DNA of 64,000 nucleotides from Archivesica marissinica (lineage: Eukaryota; Mollusca; Bivalvia; Venerida; Vesicomyidae). The notes under the pieces were generated by a model. It did not search any database. It saw nothing but the letters and a program-made list of their open reading frames with translations, and was not told the DNA's origin. Each line of letters starts with the position of its first letter. Position 1 is the stretch's first letter. Shown here in pieces: positions 22,095 to 53,600 of this stretch. The position numbers were made by a program, and so were the translations under genes. The stretch is taken from positions 51,329,450 through 51,393,449 of the forward strand of contig CM026401.1 in NCBI GenBank assembly GCA_014843695.1, given 5' to 3'.

Positions 22095-22103
22095 CTTGAA
22101 ACA
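22095..22103. other. Left 9-bp target site duplication (CTTGAAACA)
   Basis: CTTGAAACA immediately before the left terminal inverted repeat, repeated exactly at 31328-31336 after the right one. Confidence 0.9.
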
Positions 22104-22450
22104 GGGTCAGACTAAAACGCAGACGCTTATGCAGACGATATGTAATGTATAGGAAAACGCAGACAACAAAGGTATATAGTGATATCAGAAAACGCAGACG
22201 AAAGCAACATATAGGGAAAACGCAGACCAGTTGAACATAGAGTAAATTTATCTGTTTTACTGCAGACACATTGAATATATATAGAAAACGCAGACGAGTT
22301 GAATATAGAGTAAACTTGTATTATTGCAGACGCATTGAATAAATAGAGAAAATGCAGACAAGTTGAATATATATTAAAATTGTTTTATTTATCTGTGTTA
22401 ATGCAGACACATTGAATATATAGTAAAATGGTTTTAATACGCAGACATAA
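22104..22450 (+). repeat. Left terminal inverted repeat
   Basis: Pairs with the last 270 or so bases before 31,327 with only scattered differences, then continues as ATTGAATATATAG/GCAGAC subrepeats. Confidence 0.88.
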
Positions 22451-22836
22451 AATGTATCCTTGTGTATGCACTTATTTTACTAATAATGACCTTATTAGTG
22501 GAAATTGTTTACGTGACAAAACATAATAAGAAATTATGTGTTAGTAATTAGTTAGACACAAACAGTTGAAATGATCAACGGTCGACATTTAAATATACAA
22601 ATCAAATAAGGATAATAATATCCGATCATTAGTATTGTCCTTTAATCATGTTATATCTATCGGATTATTTAAATATCTATTGATATATGTGAAAACAGCC
22701 AGTAATTAATCCCCTTTGATAGTACTCATCACTTCTTACTACTGTAATATATGAGTAAACTGGTAAGTATAAATAGTAAAAATGAATACTATGTTTTAAA
22801 TTTCTGAAGGTTTATATATTAGACATACATGATCTT

Positions 22837-23240
22837 GTGAAATATAAGTATTGCTCTGTGATACTGTGGAATATAATACTTTATATTTGTGTAATTTTGA
22901 TCTTGTGGAATATAATAATTGCTATTTGTGCAACTGTGATCTTGTGGAATATAATAATTTATAATTGTGATCTTGTGGAATATAATAATTGCTATTTGTG
23001 CAACTGTGATCTTGTGGAATATAATAATTTATAATTGTGTAATTGTGATCTTGTGGAATATAATAATTGCTATTTGTGCAACTGTGATCTTGTGGAATAT
23101 AATAATTTATATTTGTGTAACTGTGATCTTGTGGTGGAGTATAATAATTGCTATTTGTGCAACTGTGATCTTGTGGAATATAATCATTTATAATTGTGTA
23201 ATTGTGATATTGTGGAATATAATAAGTTATATCTGTGCAG
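22837..23240 (+). repeat. Tandem repeat inside the foldback element
   Basis: Alternating units of GATCTTGTGGAATATAATAA with TTGCTATTTGTGCAACTGT or TTTATAATTGTGTAATTGT. Open frames over it (CDLVEYNN repeats) are period artefacts. It lies just upstream of the first SGNH exon. Confidence 0.88.
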
Positions 23241-23294
23241 CGTCCTTACTTGTTAATATCGTTATTTCTGCGATATTCATAGCGATATTTTACA

Positions 23295-25740
23295 ATGCCG
23301 CTTGTTGTAGGACATAGCCAGACAAAGTTCTTGTCAGAACGTCTGAGTAAGGAGCGTTATAGTGTTTTTCCATATTCAGGATATCGCTTACGCCAGTTCT
23401 TACAAGAGGAAGTTATATTCGATGTTGTACCCTTCTTTTCGGTAAGTAAAACCAAAAATGATAAGTGTATTTATTTAATTATAGAACGCATGCATATATT
23501 CTCTTGTCTTTCCGTAATATCTTTATAATGAAAAATAAAACGAAATTCCCTCAATTTTTAATAAGATTCAACTATTTGTTGACACTATACAACAATCAAC
23601 ATTGTGACTTCCTGTGTATTCCAGGTGGCTTTATTGTGTGAAAGGTGTTAGTAGCCGCCACACTATCGTTATAAACTTATTAAAGCTTACTACATAGAGG
23701 AGAGTATACAACACGGGGGCTAAAACGCAGACGAGTTGAACATATAGTCAATTTATCTGTTTTTTTGCAGACGCATTGAATATATAGAGAAACGCAGACG
23801 AGTTGAACATATAGTAAAATTGTTTTATTGCAGACGCATTGAATATATAGCGAAAACGCCGACGAGTTAAACATATAGTAACATTGTTTTATTGCAGACG
23901 CATTGAATATATAGAGAAACGAAGACGAGTTGAACATATAGTAAAATTGTTTTATTGCAGACGCATTGAATATATAGAGAAACGCAGACAAGTTGAACAT
24001 AGAGTAAAATTGTATTATTGCAGACGCATTGAATATATAGTAACATTGTATTATACTTTTATGTAGGTTATTGTCGTCGTTGTTGGGACAAATGACATCG
24101 GTTATAGAACGCCATCTCAGATTGTCACAGACATAGATTGCCTATGTAATCGAATTCACAGCGAGTCACCCAAGTAGGTATCTTAATACGTATTGAGGTA
24201 TTAGGACATAATGTACAAGTGCACTTTTCTCTGTAAGGCATACTTTTTCCTAAGCAGTCTGTATCTGGTCAATGAATGTCTTCTAGTCAGTCTGTTTTAC
24301 GGCAAGTGGAATAATATTATTAAGTAAAATTAAAATTTCTGCATTTAATGCAATTGTCTAAACTAAATGATTTATATATATTCAGTGCAACAGTGCTGCT
24401 ATCAGAAATTATACCGCGTTCGCAGAACCTCTACCATGGAAGCCAGCACAGTCTTGACTTCCTTGATCGCTGGAACTGGGATGCGGGGGCTATAAATAGG
24501 CTTATTCACAAGCTCTCGCTTCGCGTCTCCTGGATTGACATCATAGAACATCCAGATTTTCACACATTGTTTGGTACGTAAGAAATAGTTTGAGCATGAT
24601 GATGATGATGATGATGATAATGATTTATTACAATATACGAATCTAAGGAGATATGGTATACACGCGTTTGCTTTCATGCTAAAATGTCGTCAGATATTGC
24701 AATTTAAACGGTGGAATCTTGTCTATGGATGTGTCCAGTCACTCCGTCTTTCTGTAGCCAAATACTTCCTGTTTCAGGTGCCAGGCGAAAGTTATTGAGC
24801 ACAGACGGACTACACCTCAGCTACGAAGGTGTCGAGATTGTTGCAACTAGCATTGAAGCTGCTGTCAGATCATCGACGACTGGGTAACGATCATCGACGA
24901 CAACGACACCAACTGCGACTGGGAAACGAGCATCGACGACAACGACACCAACTGCGACTGGGAAACGATCATCGACGACAACCACACCAACTGCGACTGG
25001 GAAACGAGCATCGACGACAACCACACCAACTGCGACTGGGAAACGATCATCGACGACAACCGACAGCAAGTTTTTTCTAAGTAATGACGATGTATCACTA
25101 GTTGGTGGCGGTAACGACACACCTATATTCTCACACACTGACAGGACAATTACACCATTTGAAGCGGTCCGCTCATTCACCGTCGTGCCAAATACATCAT
25201 AATCATAAAGACCATTGGATTTGTTCAATTTACCACGAAAACAAAATATATCTCATAGACAGTTTAGGGAATGAACGCGACAAAGACAGGCTAATTTCAG
25301 ATGGCCTTAAAATTCAACTGTCACAGATTTATGGGAGGGACCAAAATATTATTGACATTCAAATTCCCAGTGTCATGAAACAAGACAACAGTATTGATTG
25401 TGGATTATTTGCTCTGGCATTCGCAACTTCATATTGTTTGAGAACAAAATTATGCTATGAATTGATCTTTGATTCTACCAAATTAAGAACACATTTATTG
25501 CATTGCCTGGAAACTGGTATGATGAGTAAATTCCCGAGGACACATAAAACTATAAGTAATCGACGACAAACATGCTGGAAAATTGTTTCTATTGAAAATT
25601 ATTGCGTATGCCATTTACCAGACTGTGTTGGTGACATGGTGCAATGTGACGCGTGCTCTGCATGGTACCACAAACATTGCTTGAACGCACCTGCAGATAT
25701 TTCTTTGATAGATAAATACTTCAATTGTGGCTTTTGCTAA
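23295..25740 (+). pseudogene. SGNH hydrolase - Ulp1 protease - PHD finger gene, broken
   Basis: Reconstructed exons: 23295-23441, 24067-24173, 24386-24573 and 24778-25740, with GT-AG sites and matching phases (0,2,1). Exons 1-4 give an SGNH/GDSL-type hydrolase: VVGHSQTK (block I, serine), VVGTNDIG (block III) and DGLHLSYEG (block V Asp-His). A Thr/Pro-rich linker of 39-bp repeats (24,880-25,060, TTTPTATGKR) follows. Next is a C48 Ulp1-like protease with KDHWICSIY (His), LIDSLG (Asp), and MKQDNSIDCGLFALAFA (Gln and Cys), and last a PHD finger CVCHLPDC...VQCDACSAWYHKHCL...CGFC. The copy is broken by an in-frame TAA at 24885 and a frameshift near 25,195-25,205; either could also be a sequencing error. 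SGNH plus PHD is known from CR1-type ORF1 proteins, and Ulp1 proteases occur in several transposon groups. The order SGNH-Ulp1-PHD inside a foldback element is not one I can name. Confidence 0.75.
23720..24060 (+). repeat. Internal block of terminal-type repeats
   Basis: Five to six units with GCAGACGAGTTGAACATATA and TTTTATTGCAGACGCATTGA in the same orientation as the left end. It sits in intron 1 of the SGNH gene and ends right at the acceptor of exon 2 (TTATGTAG). Confidence 0.88.
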
Positions 25741-26168
25741 ATTAAGAAATTAAACAATAATATATTTTTATTTGGCACTAAACTATAACATGTTCATCGT
25801 CATAAATCAAATAACATGGCGGTTATAATAAAACTAACATACATCATTCTATAAATTGAGAAAAGTGTGTGTATTATTAATTACATGTAATTAGAATATA
25901 TTGTATTATTAAAACAAATATATATACATATATCCATACACACACACACACACACATATATATACATACATATATATATATAATTGTTTTTAACATAATA
26001 ACAATTATTTATCATTAAACTATGTAACAATAGATCAATACACCCTACTGTTGACAAGTGTGCTCTATACTATATACATACAGCTAACATAATCATGTAT
26101 TATCACGTTTACTATTTGCTAAAAATATATATCTGGACAATTAATTTAATACACTTTTTTGGTTCGAT
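25741..26168. other. Junction between the convergent genes of the foldback element
   Basis: AT-rich, with a CA/TA microsatellite at about 25,937-25,985. No long poly(A) tract is seen that would mark the 3' end of a separate LINE insertion on the minus strand. Confidence 0.6.
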
Positions 26169-26169
26169 A

Positions 26170-29100
26170 TCATAATAGTTTTAAATTTCTGTAAAGTAGG
26201 CCAAGAACAATAATAATTCGGTAAGCAGTTGCACCTAATTTCTCTATAAAAATTAATGGACAAACGAGTAGAAAATGGTACTCTTTCCCTACTGCTTTCA
26301 TGTTACATTTTGTACAAATTCTATTTTCCCTTTCAATATGTCTATGTCTACCTTCTTCTATTAACAATTTATGCGCCGAACATCTAAATCTAGTTAGAGT
26401 TGTGCGATGATTAATGCTATTGATACAGCTTAAATATTTCTCCTGTTGGAAAACGCTTTTAAATGTACAATATGTTTCTAATTTAGGCAAATGGCTTATT
26501 TCAGAAAACCATTGTTGTAAATATTGATCTTTGAATCGCTGTATAACACTATGTATCTGTATATTAGTTACATGAACAATGTCACATAAATAAGCAAATC
26601 CTAAGTTGTTTAGCAACGATTTGACATCACTATACCATTTGTTCAAATTATTACCATGCCTATCTTTCATATGAAGCAATTTATACAATAGAGAATCAGG
26701 CTGTTTCAATAATTTATACCAATATTTTATTATTCTTATCTTTATATGCACAATTAAATGAATTCGACCTAGTTCTCCATAAACAGCAGCATTTGTTGTC
26801 TGTTGTCGAACATTAATCAATTGTTTCATAAATTTCATATGAACATGTTCAATATCCGGGGCCTTATGTAAACCCCATATTTCAGAACCATAATTTAAAA
26901 TAGGTAAAACCATAGAATCAAACAACTGTACTTTTTCAGATATATCTAAGGACACAACATCAAATAAAGAACTTAGTGAAAAAAGAGCCTTTAAAGCTTG
27001 GTTTGATAATGCTTTTGGCGACTGAAAAATAAACGTCTATTAGACGAAATAGTAACTCCTAAATAAATAAAAGTTTTAACAAACTGAAGTTTTCGACTGT
27101 CATAAAACACATCAAACGATTCTATTACCCTGTTTACATAGCATAACAACTGTTTTTTCTGTATTTACTGTTATGCCCCACTTCATACAGTAACAATGCA
27201 ACTTATTTAACAATTTATGCAATCCTTCTTTCGTATACGAAAAAAGCGCTGTGTCATCAGCAAATAATAAAAGGTACAGTTGCAATTCCTATACAGTGAA
27301 AACATCAGTCGATTCAGCATTTACATATGCATGCATGCCATTAATAAAAAACAATAACAATAAGGGGGATAATGGTTCACCATGTTTCACACCCATATAG
27401 CTTTCGAAATAATCGGAAGTTGTACCACTGACTCTAACACATGATTTTTTTCATACATAACTGTTAGCATTCTAACAATTTTTGTTGAGGCTCCATATTT
27501 TAACAATTTAAACCAGATGCCATGTCTGTATATCATATCGAATGCTTTTTGAAAGTCTACAAAAGCTAAATATAACTTTTTCCTTTTCAAAATTTAAAAG
27601 TTTGTTTATGACCTATTTAATACAAATAAACAATCAGTTGTACTTGTTCCTTTTCGAAAACCAAATTGGTTGTCAGATAATAAATTATTGCTTTCTGCCC
27701 ATTTTCTTAATCTGTTATCTAATAATATTGTGTGATGCCTCTGTAATTATTAACATTATTTAAGTCACCCTTTTATGGTACAGGCACAATTATTCCCGTA
27801 GTCCAACATTCAGGATAAATACAATTAAATTAAATAGTTTACAAAGTACCGGTGACAGTAATTCGTTACCTTCTAAATATATTTCAGGAATCAGTGAGTC
27901 ACTTCCTCCGCGTTTGCCTCTTTTCAGTGAAGAAATGGCTTGTTCAACTTCATTTACATTAAAGTTCATGTCTAAATCGTTGACAGTATTTTGGTTATAA
28001 TCATCATTCCTTAGTTGCTCTTCAACAATAGAATCTGACATTATATTGTCACTAGAAATAAGTCTTTAAAATGTTCATAGAAATCTTGCTTACTAATATT
28101 ACCGCGTTTGGATTTCTTTGATTTCAGCCGTTTTAACTCAGACCAAAATGTGCGTGGCTGATTATTAGCTAGACTGTGTAATTCACTCTTTTGTTTATTC
28201 TTATGTTCTGCAATAGCTCTCCTTTTAACTTGTTTATACCGCCGGCGTCTTATTATTAATAGTTCATTCTTTTCAACTGATCGACATTTTCTATAATTTC
28301 TAGTTGCTAGTTTAAATTCTCGTCGTGCATATTCACAATCATTGTTAAACCGAGGGCTTTTAAGCTTACGCTTGCTGCTTCTGCTAAATGTTCGTTTTTA
28401 TCCAAAAACAGAAAAGGCTTTTTCGTAAAACCATGTTGACATGGTGTCAATACCAATATTTAAATCAACATTTCTTGATACTATGTCATTAACAATTGTA
28501 TCAATATTTTGAAATTCAGAAAACATTACATCTCTATAACGTTATATGTTTTCAACGTTAAATCTAAGTTTATCATAAGTACAATTATCTTTAATAGTAT
28601 TCGTCTCATGTGTGTTATTCACAGCAACAGTTATTTGTATCGGTGCATGTGTTGAGCAAGTATATATATCGTGTACGATAAAATCATTAATAAGTGGAAA
28701 CACATCGCCAGAACATAAAGCATAATCAATGAGGCTATTTCCTTGAACAGTCATATTTATATAATTACCAACACCAGCGTCGTCGCCATATCGACCGTTT
28801 ACAATATTTAATTTACTACTGAAACAAATTTCTAGCAGCTTAATACCAGATGTATTTACAATATCATCCATTGAAAATCGATGCGGAATATTATATTCAT
28901 ATTCAATAGATTCGTCTCTGTTCATAACATATATATATTTATTAACGTATGTGCTATTTTGTAAAACATCAGATCTATGTCCACACCTTGCGCTTAAATC
29001 CCCCATCACGAACACATCGCCCAGTTCTGAATATGTCCGTATATTTTGTTTTAATACTTCGAAATAACCAATTTCGTGCATTGCATAATAAACAGAATTA

Positions 29101-29460
29101 CTAGGAGGGATATATAAAAAGCAAATATAAAGGTCATCCTCTAATCCGAAAAATCGTTTACAGCATTAAATCCAGTATAGTCTATTTCAGAAATTGTGAT
29201 CGCACTTTTGAATTTCTTTGTAATAAGACAAATCCCCCCCATGACCTATTTTAGACTTTACACTTAGGCTTTCCTTTCTGGGTACATACACGGAATCATA
29301 ACCTTCAATTTCGAATGTATCACTGTTTCGTTGCCAGGTTTCCGAAAGAACAACACATCAAAATTAGAAACGAAATTTACAAAATCATCGTCAAACAAAC
29401 AATTTTTTAAACCTTCAACATTCCAAGAGATAATATTTAAATTACACTTTTCTCGGGAAT
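26170..29460 (-). pseudogene. Non-LTR endonuclease/reverse transcriptase, multiply frameshifted
   Basis: Minus-strand remnants in order: an APE-type endonuclease (IISWNVEGLKN near 29,430, then a shifted ETW motif, GHGGICLITK near 29,230, and FVMGDLSARCGH near 29,010); RT start with ISSLKRGKRGGSDSLIPEIY near 27,900; RT motif A (AFVDFQKAFD, 27,560); GVKHGEPLSPLL near 27,370; catalytic FADD near 27,260; and an uninterrupted C-terminal part 26,955-26,170 with a CTKCNMKAVGKEYHFLLVCP zinc-binding-like motif. Stops and frameshifts separate the blocks, so no intact protein is made. The clade is not certain. It runs toward the SGNH-Ulp1-PHD gene and lies wholly inside the foldback element. Confidence 0.85.
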
Positions 29461-29694
29461 CCTATCTTGAACCGTCGTACTGTCGGCCGGGTTTGAATAG
29501 TTGATTGTTTATAACAGTTTATCCCGGACCAGCACAGCACGGTGTCCGTCTTTCCGGGGTAGTGACGTTATAAACTTTAATACCCTTCAATAAACAATAT
29601 TTAATTGATTATCTTAATTGCAATATACAGTGTCCCGCGTGTCAAAGGGATAATACAGTAGTTGTATATATGTGAATTCAATATTAATCCACTA

Positions 29695-31327
29695 AAACCA
29701 ATCAACTCGTCTGCGTTTTCGCTGTATATTCAATGTGTCTGCAATAAAACAGATAAATTTACTCTATGTTCAACTCGTCTGCGTTTTCGCTATATATTCA
29801 ATGCGTCTGCAATAATACAATTTTACTCTATGTTCAACTGGTCTGCGTTTCTCTATATATTCAATGCGTCTGCAATAAAACAATTTTACTCTATGTTCAA
29901 CTCGTCTGCGTTTCTCTATATATTCAATGTGTCTGCAATAATACAATTGTACTCTATGTTCAACTCGTCTGCGTTTCTCTATATATTAAATATATCTGCA
30001 ATAAAACAATTTACTATATGTTCAACTCGTCTGCGTTTTCGCTATATATTCAATGCGTCTGCAATAAAACAGATAAATTTACTCTATGTTCAACTCGTCT
30101 GCGTTTTCGCTATATATTCAATGCGTCTGCAATAAAACAGATAAATTCACTCTATGTTCAACTCGTCTGCGTTTTCGCTATATATTCAATGCGTCTGCAA
30201 TAAAACAATTTTACTCTATGTACAACTCGTCTGCGTTTCTCTATATATTCAACGTGTCTGCAATAAAACAGATAAATTTACTATATGTTCAACTCGTCTG
30301 CGTTTTCGCTATATATTCAATGTGTCTGCATTAACACAGATAAATAAAACAATTTTAATATATATTCAACTTGTCTGCATTTTCTCTATATATTCAATGC
30401 GTCTGCAATAAAACAATTTTACTCTATGTTCAACTCGTCTGCGTTTTCGCTATATATTCAATGCGTCTGCAATAAAACAATTTTACTCTATGTACAACTC
30501 GTCTGCGTTTCTCTATATATTCAACGTGTCTGCAATAAAACAGATAAATTTACTATATGTTCAACTCGTCTGCGTTTTCGCTATATATTCAATGTGTCTG
30601 CATTAACACAGATAAATAAAACAATTTTAATATATATTCAACTTGTCTGCATTTTCTCTATATATTCAATGCGTCTGCAATAAAACAATTTTACTCTATG
30701 TTCAACTCGTCTGCGTTTCTCTATATATTCAACGTGTCTGCAATAAAACAGATAAATTTACTATATGTTCAACTCGTCTGCGTGTTCGCTATATATTCAA
30801 TGTGTCTGCATTAACACAGATAAATAAAACAATTTTAATATATATTCAACTTGTCTGCATTTTCTCTATATATTCAATGCGTCTGCAATAATACAAGTTT
30901 ACTCTATGTTCAACTCGTCTGCATTTGCTCTATATATTCAACTCGTCTACAATAAAACAATGTTACTATATGCGCAATTTGTCTGCTTAAAACAAATGAA
31001 ACAACAAACAATAAAACAATTATAGTATATTTTCAACTTGTCAAAAACAATTTTACTATATATTCAACTTGTCTGCATTTTCTCTATATATTCAATGCGT
31101 CTGCATTAATACAAGTTTACTCTATATTCAACTCGTCTGCGTTTTCTATAATATATTCAATGTGTCTGCAGTAAAACAGATAAATTGACTCTATGTTCAA
31201 CTGGTCTGCGTTTTCCCTATGTGTTGCTTTCGTCTGCGTTTTCCGATATCACTATATACCTTTGTTGTCTGCGTTTTCCTATACATTACATATCGTCTGC
31301 ATAAGCGTCTGCGTTTTAGCCCGACCC
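29695..31327 (-). repeat. Right terminal inverted repeat with about 24 subrepeats
   Basis: Units of about 65-68 bp: TTCAACTCGTCTGCGTTTTC, CTATATATTCAATGCGTCTG and CAATAAAACAGATAAATTTA. Higher-order copies of about 270 bp repeat at 30,150-30,900. The outermost 270 bp match the left end in reverse complement. Open frames over it are artefacts. Confidence 0.9.
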
Positions 31328-31336
31328 CTTGAAACA
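31328..31336. other. Right 9-bp target site duplication (CTTGAAACA)
   Basis: Exact match to 22095-22103. Confidence 0.9.
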
Positions 31337-43734: not shown

Positions 43735-44014
43735 TACGTTTATTTATCGTTGCTACCAGTTGCCCATATGAGCGACACCTCCTGAAGAGATTAGTCATTT
43801 TAGATTTTGGAGGATAGTGCAATGATACAGACAGAGACCCATTCCAGAGTCTCCTCTGGTTCTTTTACGTGCACAGTGTAAAGCACCGACACGAGACCTC
43901 GGTTTAACGTCCCATCTGAAAGACTGTTAATTTTATTAGGGTCAGACGGGGGATCGAACCTGCGATCCCTGGATTACCAGTCCAGCGTGTTACCACTGGA
44001 CTACAGATCCGTCT
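43735..44014 (-). mobile_element. SINE family E (tRNA-Thr-like head)
   Basis: Minus-strand copy of the element at 51,179-51,460. The head at the right end reads, in sense, ACGGATCTGTAGTCCAGTGG; the body contains GACGTTAAACCGAGGTC, a block shared by a widespread invertebrate SINE group. Confidence 0.85.
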
Positions 44015-50614: not shown

Positions 50615-53600
50615 ATGTCGGACACAGAAGCATGTGGATCGACGACAAAATCGCAATTCCTTCCAGAACGCGAAAATGTCAATCAATTTGTACAGGTAAA
50701 TGTAGAGAATAATTAAGTCAATTCTTTTTTCATCAATTTCAAAATAAATTGTTGATATCATTTACCCATATTCTAATATTTTCTAGTGATGAGTATCCGG
50801 ATACATGAATGGTTTCGGATAAACAATAATATTTATTTCATTATAGGCTTTGAACATCGACTAAAACACTGTCCATCAGTGGAACAATCGTATCAACGCT
50901 GAATATATTGCGGTCATTTCAAAACATCGTTGTCGGAACTCTGCACATAGGCTCTCCACTCGTACCAGCTGTGTAGGCTACGCTATGCATCATCTGGTTT
51001 GGGTTAGGTCAAGGGTTAGTGTTACGGAGATTATGTCTGCTTGGTCCAGTGGATTATTGTGCATACGTTAATAAAGAGCGAGACGATGTTAAATCAGTTG
51101 CAATTACTGAATTAGATGATAAGTATCGCATTTGAATATACAGGAACCAATGCTGCACATGTTATAATTGCTATCTACAGACGGATCTGTAGTCCAGTGG
51201 TAACACGCTGGACTGGTAATCCAGGGATCGCAGGTTCGATCCCAGCCTGACCCAATAAAATTAACAGTCTTCAGATGGGACGTTAAACCGAGGTCTGTGT
51301 CGGTGCTTTACACTGTGCCGTAAAAGAACCAGAGGAGACTCTGGAAGGGTCTCTGTCTGTATCATTGCACTATCCTCCAAAAATCTAAAATGTCTAATCT
51401 CTTCAGGAGGCGTTGCTCATATGGGCAACCGGTAGCGACGATAAATAAACGTAAAACACACACACAAAATTGCTATCTTATTTCAAGCCTTGTTATTGGT
51501 TTATTTCATTGAAAAGGTCTTTTTATATTCGTTGTTAATTCTTTATGGAAAAGTGCACAGCACTGACCTACAATAACCAAAATACTGTAGTTGACATTTT
51601 TATCTGTGGAAATAAACTAAATAGACTATCGAAATTACTGTATATTCATGGCCATAAGTCGAGGCTCAAACATTTGGCTTGAAAATGCTGATTTTATGCT
51701 GGATCCTTCCTTAAGTCGAGGAAACTTTGGTGTATGTGTGGACATTCGTTCTGACAATTGTTTTGATCTCATTGACACTTAGTTTTTTCTCTCATTTTTG
51801 AATGAAACCGAGCTCAATTTGAGATATCTTGTTGACTTTAGTCCAATACAAATCATTAAAAAATGCACTGATGTACTTCTATAACAATAATTTATGAAGT
51901 TTGTTTGTCAAATTCTCTATGGTTTATCATATAAATAATTGTATGACTGTTTATTTAGTGAGCAGGATGGGCTGTACTGCAGCCAGTGTTGTAACAAGAT
52001 GATTTGATTGCTTTATTTCCAGCATACCTTGAAGGCTGTACTGCAGGCCAGTGTTTTAACAAGATGATTTGATTGCTTTATTTCCAGCATACCTTGAAGG
52101 CGGTACTACAAGCCACAAAGTGTTCTAACGAGATGCCGGCTGCCGGCGATGACTTTGATTACTATTCAAGTTTCCAGGGATTTCAAGATATGATGAACAT
52201 TGAAGGAAAACGAATTCTGCATGCGTAAGTAAAACATGTTATTGCTGCTTTCCAACTAACTTCTGCAATACTCAAAAACTATAAAATGAAGAGAAACCAC
52301 ACGTCGAACACCGGGGGTACAGTTGACCATATATTTGTTGACCGATTTCGATCTAATATGGACCGTCATTTGAATAATGAATATACATAACACAGGATCA
52401 TTCTAGAGGGCTATGTGGGCGAAATTGTCGCCCTAGGGACCCTGACTTCACCCTCTGGGGGCCCCACTTCTCCCTAAAAAAAATATTTTTTGGTTTTTAC
52501 GATTTTCAAACAAAATTGTGTCCATTATAAAGCACTCCTATTCAAATGTTGTATTTAATAGTTGTACTGTGCATTTTAACCCTATTTTGCAGAAGTTTAT
52601 TAAAGAACACCATTTAAGGAAGCGATCACGCGCTTTCTCACTTCTCCCAAAAATTCTGACCTAGAATGAACCCTGATAAAGAATTTACTGTATCTATACG
52701 GTTCTGAAACAGTGGAGCCAATCTGTGACCTACTGCTGTTTGATTGGGAAAAGTTCTGATTTGATGTGAAATATTCATTGGATATTCGAATGCCATTTTA
52801 CTATCTGGTCCTGTTCCTACTAAATCCTTTAAATATTTCATAATTAGTGATGGCAACGAATACCGGTAGTGAATTAACTATTTGAATATTCAGTTGGGGA
52901 AGTAATCAATAATTTGTTAATATCAAATCACTCAGAATTTTATTTTTAAAACAAACAGCCTTCAAATTAACCTCCTTTAAATGTAATATTTCAACGAATT
53001 GTTCTTGTCTAAACGTTTTTAAACCCATATTACCAATATTTGCCAAGCAGTGCAACAATTTTGCAAAGAAAGTAGTTTGTAACTTTGACGTTGAATCGAG
53101 TTTTCAGTGTACAACATGTAGAAAAATGTGTATATGTAGTAGTTTACACTGACGTCCTACTTTGGGAAATCGGTCAGATAATCACCTCATGTCGAACGAT
53201 ATCGTCTGTTTTGACAAAACCTCCATTTTCACGTGCACGCACGGGGTGAACATATCTGGTTTACATGTGTTAACTTTTTTCACTGCAAGTTATTGCACTT
53301 GACGACTACAGTCATAAAAATACCTAAACAGCTTTATATCGATACAATTTGGGCAAAATTTCGATGCCTCAAATTGCGAAACATTTAAGAGAGAGAGCAG
53401 TTGGGATGCTGGAGGCAGGAGCTTCAACGGAAGAGGTTGCTGCGCACGTTGGATCATCTGTGCAGGCAGTTAGAAGTCTGAGACGGCGGTTTGTGCAGAC
53501 CGGAGGCACGGAAGATCTTCCACGTAGCGGTAGACCACGTGTAACCACGCCGGCGCAAGACCGCTATATTTTGAACCAACATTTACGAAATCGTTTTTTA

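Follow-up and report, generated by a model that had tools for sequence, protein, structure and literature searches.

A non-autonomous foldback Mutator-like element of Archivesica marissinica, interrupted by a LINE, and its relatives with CG-1-type and transposase domains

Kaonashi elements are plant Mutator-like elements (MULEs) that carry Ulp1-like genes. Tm1 of root-knot nematodes, a Mutator/Foldback element, combines composite foldback-type ends of variable length with 9-bp duplications, a MULE transposase and non-autonomous copies, according to the sections of PMC3169594 that describe it. Rehavkus, as characterized in part of PMC6446971, has a 9-bp duplication, a terminal inverted repeat (TIR) that can reach 400 bp, a minisatellite close to this end and a PHD finger in its transposase. 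Mutator elements of Hydra and lancelet encode Ulp1, and the Ulp1 and PHD domains of Mutator transposases are aligned in the relevant passages of the Ginger paper (PMC2836005). Here, we analyze a comparable element at positions 22095-31336 of a 64,000-nt window (C16:51329450-51393449, CM026401.1, including 2,000 N) of the Archivesica marissinica genome (1.54 Gb, 2,808 contigs), whose protein matches name bivalves (Mercenaria, Mactra, Mya). The original prediction had described it as a composite foldback transposon, in which a plus-strand SGNH-Ulp1-PHD gene is paired with a convergent reverse transcriptase (RT), thus uniting functions of the two open reading frames (ORF1 and ORF2) of a long interspersed nuclear element (LINE).

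Our analysis leads to a different reading, which we consider highly probable. The window copy is a non-autonomous, internally deleted, foldback-ended MULE copy that was later hit by an unrelated LINE, and its full-length relatives likely encode one transposase composed of SGNH, repeat linker, CG-1-type, MULE DDE, SWIM-like, Ulp1 and PHD parts, in this order. The window copy is a dead derivative of an ordinary kind, and the interest lies in its relatives. Its layout, in window coordinates, is as follows.

22095..22103, no strand: left 9-bp target-site duplication CTTGAAACA, exact match to the right copy
22104..22450, plus strand: left foldback arm, built of subrepeats in tandem (AAAACGCAGAC and following), with like ends at many other genome places
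22817..23276, plus strand: minisatellite of about 10 units of 39 bp, preceding the gene and common to other copies
23295..23441, plus strand: SGNH exon 1 (predicted limits, as for exons 2 and 3)
23715..24060, plus strand: internal array of end subrepeats within the first intron, from repeat search and unit counts
24067..24173, plus strand: SGNH exon 2
24386..24573, plus strand: SGNH exon 3
24778..25166, plus strand: first part of the last exon, with SGNH block V, a coding tandem repeat and the pre-CG-1 segment; in-frame stop at about 24885
24877-25071, plus strand: 39-bp coding tandem repeat SSTTTTPTATGKR, within the last exon
25166..25167, no strand: internal deletion junction, with CG-1, MULE DDE and SWIM parts gone, placed by matches to relatives on either side
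25167..25600, plus strand: Ulp1-like cysteine protease part (Peptidase_C48), 19.4 bits, under the cut-off of 20.7
25603..25737, plus strand: PHD finger at the transposase gene end, 26.5 bits, cut-off 24
25757..29557, minus strand: separate LINE (RT, broken frames), private to the window copy among those retrieved
29558..29690, plus strand: unique 3' stretch belonging to the foldback element, joined to 25756 in 8 other copies
29702..31327, minus strand: right foldback arm, made of tandem subrepeats over about 1.6 kb, from repeat search and unit counts
31328..31336, no strand: right 9-bp target-site duplication CTTGAAACA, exact match to the left copy

The ends are of the foldback type, being long inverted repeats of tandem subrepeats that vary across copies. 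When 22104-22390 is aligned with the final 290 bases before 31327, taken in reverse complement, 276 of 287 positions are identical, with 3 gap positions, and a repeat search of the window (275 inverted pairs) gives 97% identity for the arms 22104-22280 and 31151-31327. End subrepeats are AAAACGCAGAC and AAAACGCGGACG. In the window copy, GCAGAC/GTCTGC units number 11 in the left arm, 46 in the right arm and 8 in the internal array, compared with 11 in the 54,758 window bases beyond the element. The 9-bp duplication flanking the arms is of the MULE type (8-11 bp, mostly 9), in the window copy as in several of its relatives. The near-identical, subrepeat-built ends and the exact duplication, which the original prediction had reported, are therefore confirmed, and with the MULE relatives described below they bear out its broader view of a non-autonomous, Mutator-related foldback DNA transposon with an Ulp1-bearing gene.

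Searching the genome with the left end yields at least 138 matches, several per copy (40 scored of 312 first-look candidates), and 20 other foldback stretches were retrieved as the comparison set. Both ends were located in nine of these stretches. Exact 9-bp duplications surround five of the eight testable copies (L011, L012, L014, L015, and L017), while the duplication of L009 is 10 bp and shifted by two bases; comparison of the flanks of L010 and L016 revealed no target duplication, and L013 falls outside the count since its flank is N. Another relative, L049, has related ends and its own 9-bp duplication, GTTAAAACA. For a copy at C10:26.19 Mb, no right end was found within 17.8 kb. The gene module is absent at E<=0.001 from five of the 20 stretches (L012, L016, L017, L019, and L028), three of which (L012, L016, and L017) have both ends. 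Several copies with 9-bp duplications, as anticipated, thus exist, but none was seen with both genes in convergent order. The 39-bp minisatellite at 22817-23276 (GTGATCTTGTGGAATATAATAATT and following) lies immediately before the start of SGNH, and many gene-bearing copies have it too.

As for the plus-strand gene, it is split into the three SGNH exons listed above and a fourth starting at 24778, with limits predicted from GT/AG sites. Once spliced, the SGNH part reaches 42.1 bits against PF13472 (Lipase_GDSL_2, cut-off 32.9). We take GHSQ in exon 1 to be the nucleophile block, GTND in exon 2 to be a further SGNH block and DGLHLSYEG in the last exon to be block V. This part fits solved esterases and one ORF1-encoded protein (4c1b), presumably a LINE product, about equally well. 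A search for full-length SGNH protein homologues returned one only, P0032, covering exon 1 alone. The SGNH and PHD parts score above cut-off in the window copy, but the Ulp1 part is under it; Peptidase_C48 reaches 29.9 bits in the relative L045. When the Ulp1 part was compared with the PDB, no Ulp1 chain was among the matches listed, most of which were PHD chains. The frame is broken by the stop near 24885 and shifts at the deletion junction.

The window copy carries a clean internal deletion at 25166/25167. To the left of the junction, alignments of L052 and L053 with the window stop at 25166 and 25164, respectively; to the right, L011, L014, L026, L027, and L057 align from 25167, and L010 from 25175. 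In an independent genome search, the window match stops at residue 84 of L046, near the start of its CG-1 domain (residue 77). L052 and L053 are close to the window copy, with exon 4 of L053 matching at 92.5% over 27 residues, and both have the CG-1 domain, at 32.6 bits.

Relatives retain what the window copy has lost. A genome search using just PF10551 found other MULE places (150 scored of 640 candidates), none of them within foldback copies when compared by eye, and we therefore used the L011 sequence itself as a query. Many PF10551 matches have equal scores and frames of up to 468 aa; they apparently represent another MULE family, likely in a recent burst. L011 has two long frames between SGNH exon 2 and Ulp1, including a ITNNVSESLNAKLKRL stretch and a CxC...CxH finger, in which Pfam recognized no domain. 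With the first frame as query, 27 rows were obtained, among which are relatives with long frames and 65-70% identity at five places, two of these having like sequences. In these relatives, CG-1, MULE, Peptidase_C48, and PHD score above Pfam cut-offs and SWIM below. Across the proteins scanned, the best SWIM score is 15.8 bits against a cut-off of 19.6 (P0005), with the CxC...CxH pattern visible by eye only. The MULE DDE domain (PF10551, cut-off 27.6) scores 28.3 bits in L042, 24.3 bits (under cut-off) in L046, and 34.0, 35.2, and 30.7 bits in the predicted proteins P0011, P0012, and P0020; the best match of its fold is ISCth4. The family thus possesses a MULE-type DDE domain, which the window copy itself lacks.

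These parts lie beside or between those of the SGNH-Ulp1-PHD gene. MULE C-terminal sequence in L011 and SWIM sequence in L011, L014, L026 and, in part, L027 lie between SGNH and Ulp1, and SGNH adjoins CG-1/MULE on the same strand at C17:43.91, C12:29.77, C5:76.79, and C15:47.56 Mb and on C1868. At C17:43.91 Mb (L058), an unbroken 552-aa frame comprises SGNH exons 3-4, a PSPTIV repeat linker, CG-1 (22.8 bits, slightly under cut-off) and the start of MULE. It is followed by a foldback end, the other end not being found in the 8 kb retrieved, and comparison of the frame with the PDB gave no informative match. Alignment reveals an SGNH-like end, without GDSL match, joined to CG-1 in the Mercenaria gene model P0021 and in P0020 and P0026. 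L049 has pieces of SGNH, MULE-C, SWIM, Ulp1, and PHD. Because none of the copies seen has all domains intact, we infer the six-part protein from these overlaps, and all parts would belong to a single polypeptide. SGNH and PHD are here opposite ends of one MULE transposase gene, and not LINE ORF1 functions.

The RT block is a separate LINE, an unrelated insertion in the window copy. The predicted minus-strand RT is present as many short frame pieces, and among the four scanned there is only one weak RVT_1 match (15.8 bits versus 29.6); we name it a LINE from this match, the reading of its frames and its high copy number with fixed limits. With 28700-29690 as query, 29 of 41 other rows stop at 29558 and none extends beyond (40 scored of 124 candidates). 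With 25640-26700 (781 candidates, 40 of them scored), 30 of 49 other rows begin at 25759, and single rows begin at 25753 and 25740. This LINE of about 3.8 kb therefore occurs with the same limits at dozens of other places, and its length accounts for the interval that the empty sites define, with a difference of no more than two bases. No part of the block 25757-29557 is found in any of the 20 other foldback stretches, eight of which (L009, L010, L011, L013, L014, L015, L026, and L027) have the uninterrupted site, 25756 being joined without gap to 29558. L014 and L026 represent one shared insertion site, and the other 12 stretches do not show the LINE site, so they weigh less. When the lists of LINE and foldback places were compared by eye, no other coincidence was apparent, and no LINE target duplication was found at 25756/29558 relative to the eight empty sites. 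A different RT frame lies in L010 (1117-3342, minus strand; 742 aa, RVT_1 3e-23), where it adjoins a repeat array; the window LINE query does not find it. Because this RT differs and shares the strand of the L010 gene, no conserved convergent pair is seen. Foldback copies seem to collect retrotransposon insertions.

The region preceding the MULE domain shows CG-1 (PF03859) above cut-off in 9 of the 16 sequences reaching it (L043, L046, L052, L053, P0019, P0020, P0022, P0026, and P0027); the other seven (P0011, P0017, P0021, P0023, P0024, P0028, and L058) are below cut-off or have no match. CG-1 entered the WRKY/GCM1 clan in 2022 on structural grounds, and the clan features given in the corresponding part of PMC9252788 are found here, namely a helix (H91-99) followed by five strands and a DxxxW motif, whose D137 and W141 are invariant in 13 sequences. 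No FLYWCH match, a Phantom/Tm1 feature, precedes the MULE domain in the proteins scanned, where CG-1/WRKY matches are found instead. No solved CG-1 domain was found when the PDB was searched by sequence. The transposon profile picks up a presumed host CAMTA exon, L051 (CG-1 79.2 bits), at E 6e-4.

CAMTA-type VCGCGB boxes were counted in L049, where the arms and intron array have 10 in 1,341 bp, the coding part 0 in 3.2 kb, and the flanks 1 in 3.8 kb; shuffles (n=200) reached the observed count 9 times for the left arm, 0 for the intron array, and 45 for the right arm. The three window arrays have no VCGCGB box. They contain 29 ACGCAG/CTGCGT sites in 2,321 bp versus 4 in 52.8 kb from elsewhere in the window, a variant that was picked post hoc and unshuffled. 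The CAMTA box as a candidate binding site is a lead only, the repeats not being independent.

Alternative explanations differ in how they account for the gene and the RT. The composite element of the original prediction, with the SGNH-Ulp1-PHD gene and convergent RT both working parts, draws on their position within one pair of ends in the window and on the second RT-bearing copy, L010. We reject it as extremely improbable, since the LINE-free copies, the empty sites and the limits of the LINE elsewhere (among the candidates scored) already refute it for this genome, and the L010 RT is another one, adjoining a repeat array on the strand of the gene. Of the observations that the original prediction named as refuting it, copies with such ends but no gene module do exist and the RT is a separate LINE; a target duplication of that LINE was looked for at its junctions and not found. 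It is also very unlikely that the gene is a host gene captured by the foldback element rather than a transposase piece. Taken alone, the window has no transposase in this gene, and Mutator elements tend to pick up host gene fragments (as stated in a passage of PMC6446971); this is countered by the MULE C-terminal and SWIM sequences between SGNH and Ulp1 in family copies, by the five places where SGNH adjoins CG-1/MULE, and by the Mercenaria gene model and the two predicted proteins joining an SGNH-like end to CG-1.

A more serious challenge concerns the CG-1-type domain, which could be an ordinary WRKY/FLYWCH-type transposase domain that has come to resemble CG-1 by convergence within the clan. 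WRKY chains account for seven of the nine PDB profile matches (E 0.009 to 0.23), with no CG-1 structure there to compete, and WRKY is above cut-off in P0023 and P0026. However, these are only two sequences versus nine for CG-1, the helix that precedes the sheet and the order of its five strands fit the CG-1/NAM/Gti1 subgroup, and alignments of the predicted fold span 101-118 residues for Ssr4, NAC, and Gti1/Pac2 versus 57-79 for WRKY. Moreover, no conserved set of zinc ligands can be read from the alignment. We therefore regard this alternative as unlikely, while taking it seriously.

Under the favored reading, a foldback-ended MULE family of which the window holds a deleted copy, the CG-1-type domain would bind the end subrepeats, and the DDE domain would cut and insert with a 9-bp stagger. 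The window copy may have moved by borrowing the enzyme of a fuller relative. The Ulp1 part might strip SUMO or a similar tag and the PHD finger might read target chromatin. The SGNH part is a putative esterase, perhaps gained from a LINE ORF1 because the ORF1-encoded structure matched about as well as esterases did.

One implication is that CAMTA regulators may share ancestry with jumping genes. Other members of the WRKY/GCM1 clan were reportedly linked to MULE transposases by Babu et al. in 2006. We tentatively propose that a living Mutator-type transposase carries CG-1, that the CG-1 of the calcium-responsive CAMTA factors has its origin in a transposase domain (an origin also proposed for WRKY and FLYWCH), that the bivalve family added an SGNH esterase, Ulp1, and PHD, and that the enzyme recognizes tandem CGCG-like boxes in the foldback ends; as a whole, this proposal is possible, with the balance tilted against it. 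A transposase family passing the CG-1 cut-off, with two members passing that of WRKY, offers a candidate connection from transposons to CAMTA regulators, so that trees and binding assays can test such an origin. The relatives also point to a transposase source for the foldback elements of this bivalve genome, and the window illustrates how a nested LINE insertion and an internal deletion can mimic a new composite element.

Other observations were made in the same genome. A larger element of 24.5 kb at C6:102.03 Mb was rejected because its outer flanks mirror each other, indicating an inverted duplication (L030-L032, C6:102028082-102053651), in which one foldback end and its flank seem to have been doubled head to head; similar ends are found at C6:69.22 and 69.32 Mb. 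At C10:10.47-10.64 Mb, four near-identical SGNH exon copies on one strand, spaced by about 40-80 kb, suggest segmental tandem amplification. In the window, two tRNA matches exceed the Rfam gathering score (43938-44010 and 51183-51254).

As regards known systems, the family resembles Kaonashi in having an Ulp1-like protease in a Mutator element, Kaonashi being a plant family. Mutator/foldback elements with 9-bp duplications, PHD with a minisatellite, and Mutator transposases with Ulp1 and an alignment of PHD are already in print. By title and abstract, we found no report in the open-licence literature of CG-1 or SGNH in a MULE transposase, which does not prove absence, and searched passages of PMC10027918, PMC13359780, and PMC6446971 have no mention of CG-1. 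Tetris of Drosophila virilis has foldback ends with internal tandem repeats, like the window element, but is apparently non-autonomous, with no gene of this kind in its abstract (PMC4079207). The Hydra and lancelet transposases share Ulp1 and PHD with the family; those passages of PMC2836005 say nothing of foldback ends, CG-1, or SGNH. The PHD finger, the minisatellite near the TIR, and the 9-bp duplication liken the window copy, by description only, to Rehavkus, which differs in being reported only from arthropods and annelids, with no CG-1, SGNH, or Ulp1 listed in that part of PMC6446971. All four features of Tm1 given at the outset recur in the family. Tm1 differs in its 496-aa FLYWCH-MULE (Phantom-like) protein, for which the sections of PMC3169594 concerned report no SGNH, CG-1, Ulp1, or PHD. 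Finally, the family shares with CAMTA factors a CG-1-type DNA-binding domain (PF03859; as described in part of PMC4770041); unlike CAMTA, with its TIG, ankyrin, and IQ features, for which no matches were reported among the scanned transposon proteins, it has a DDE transposase after CG-1.
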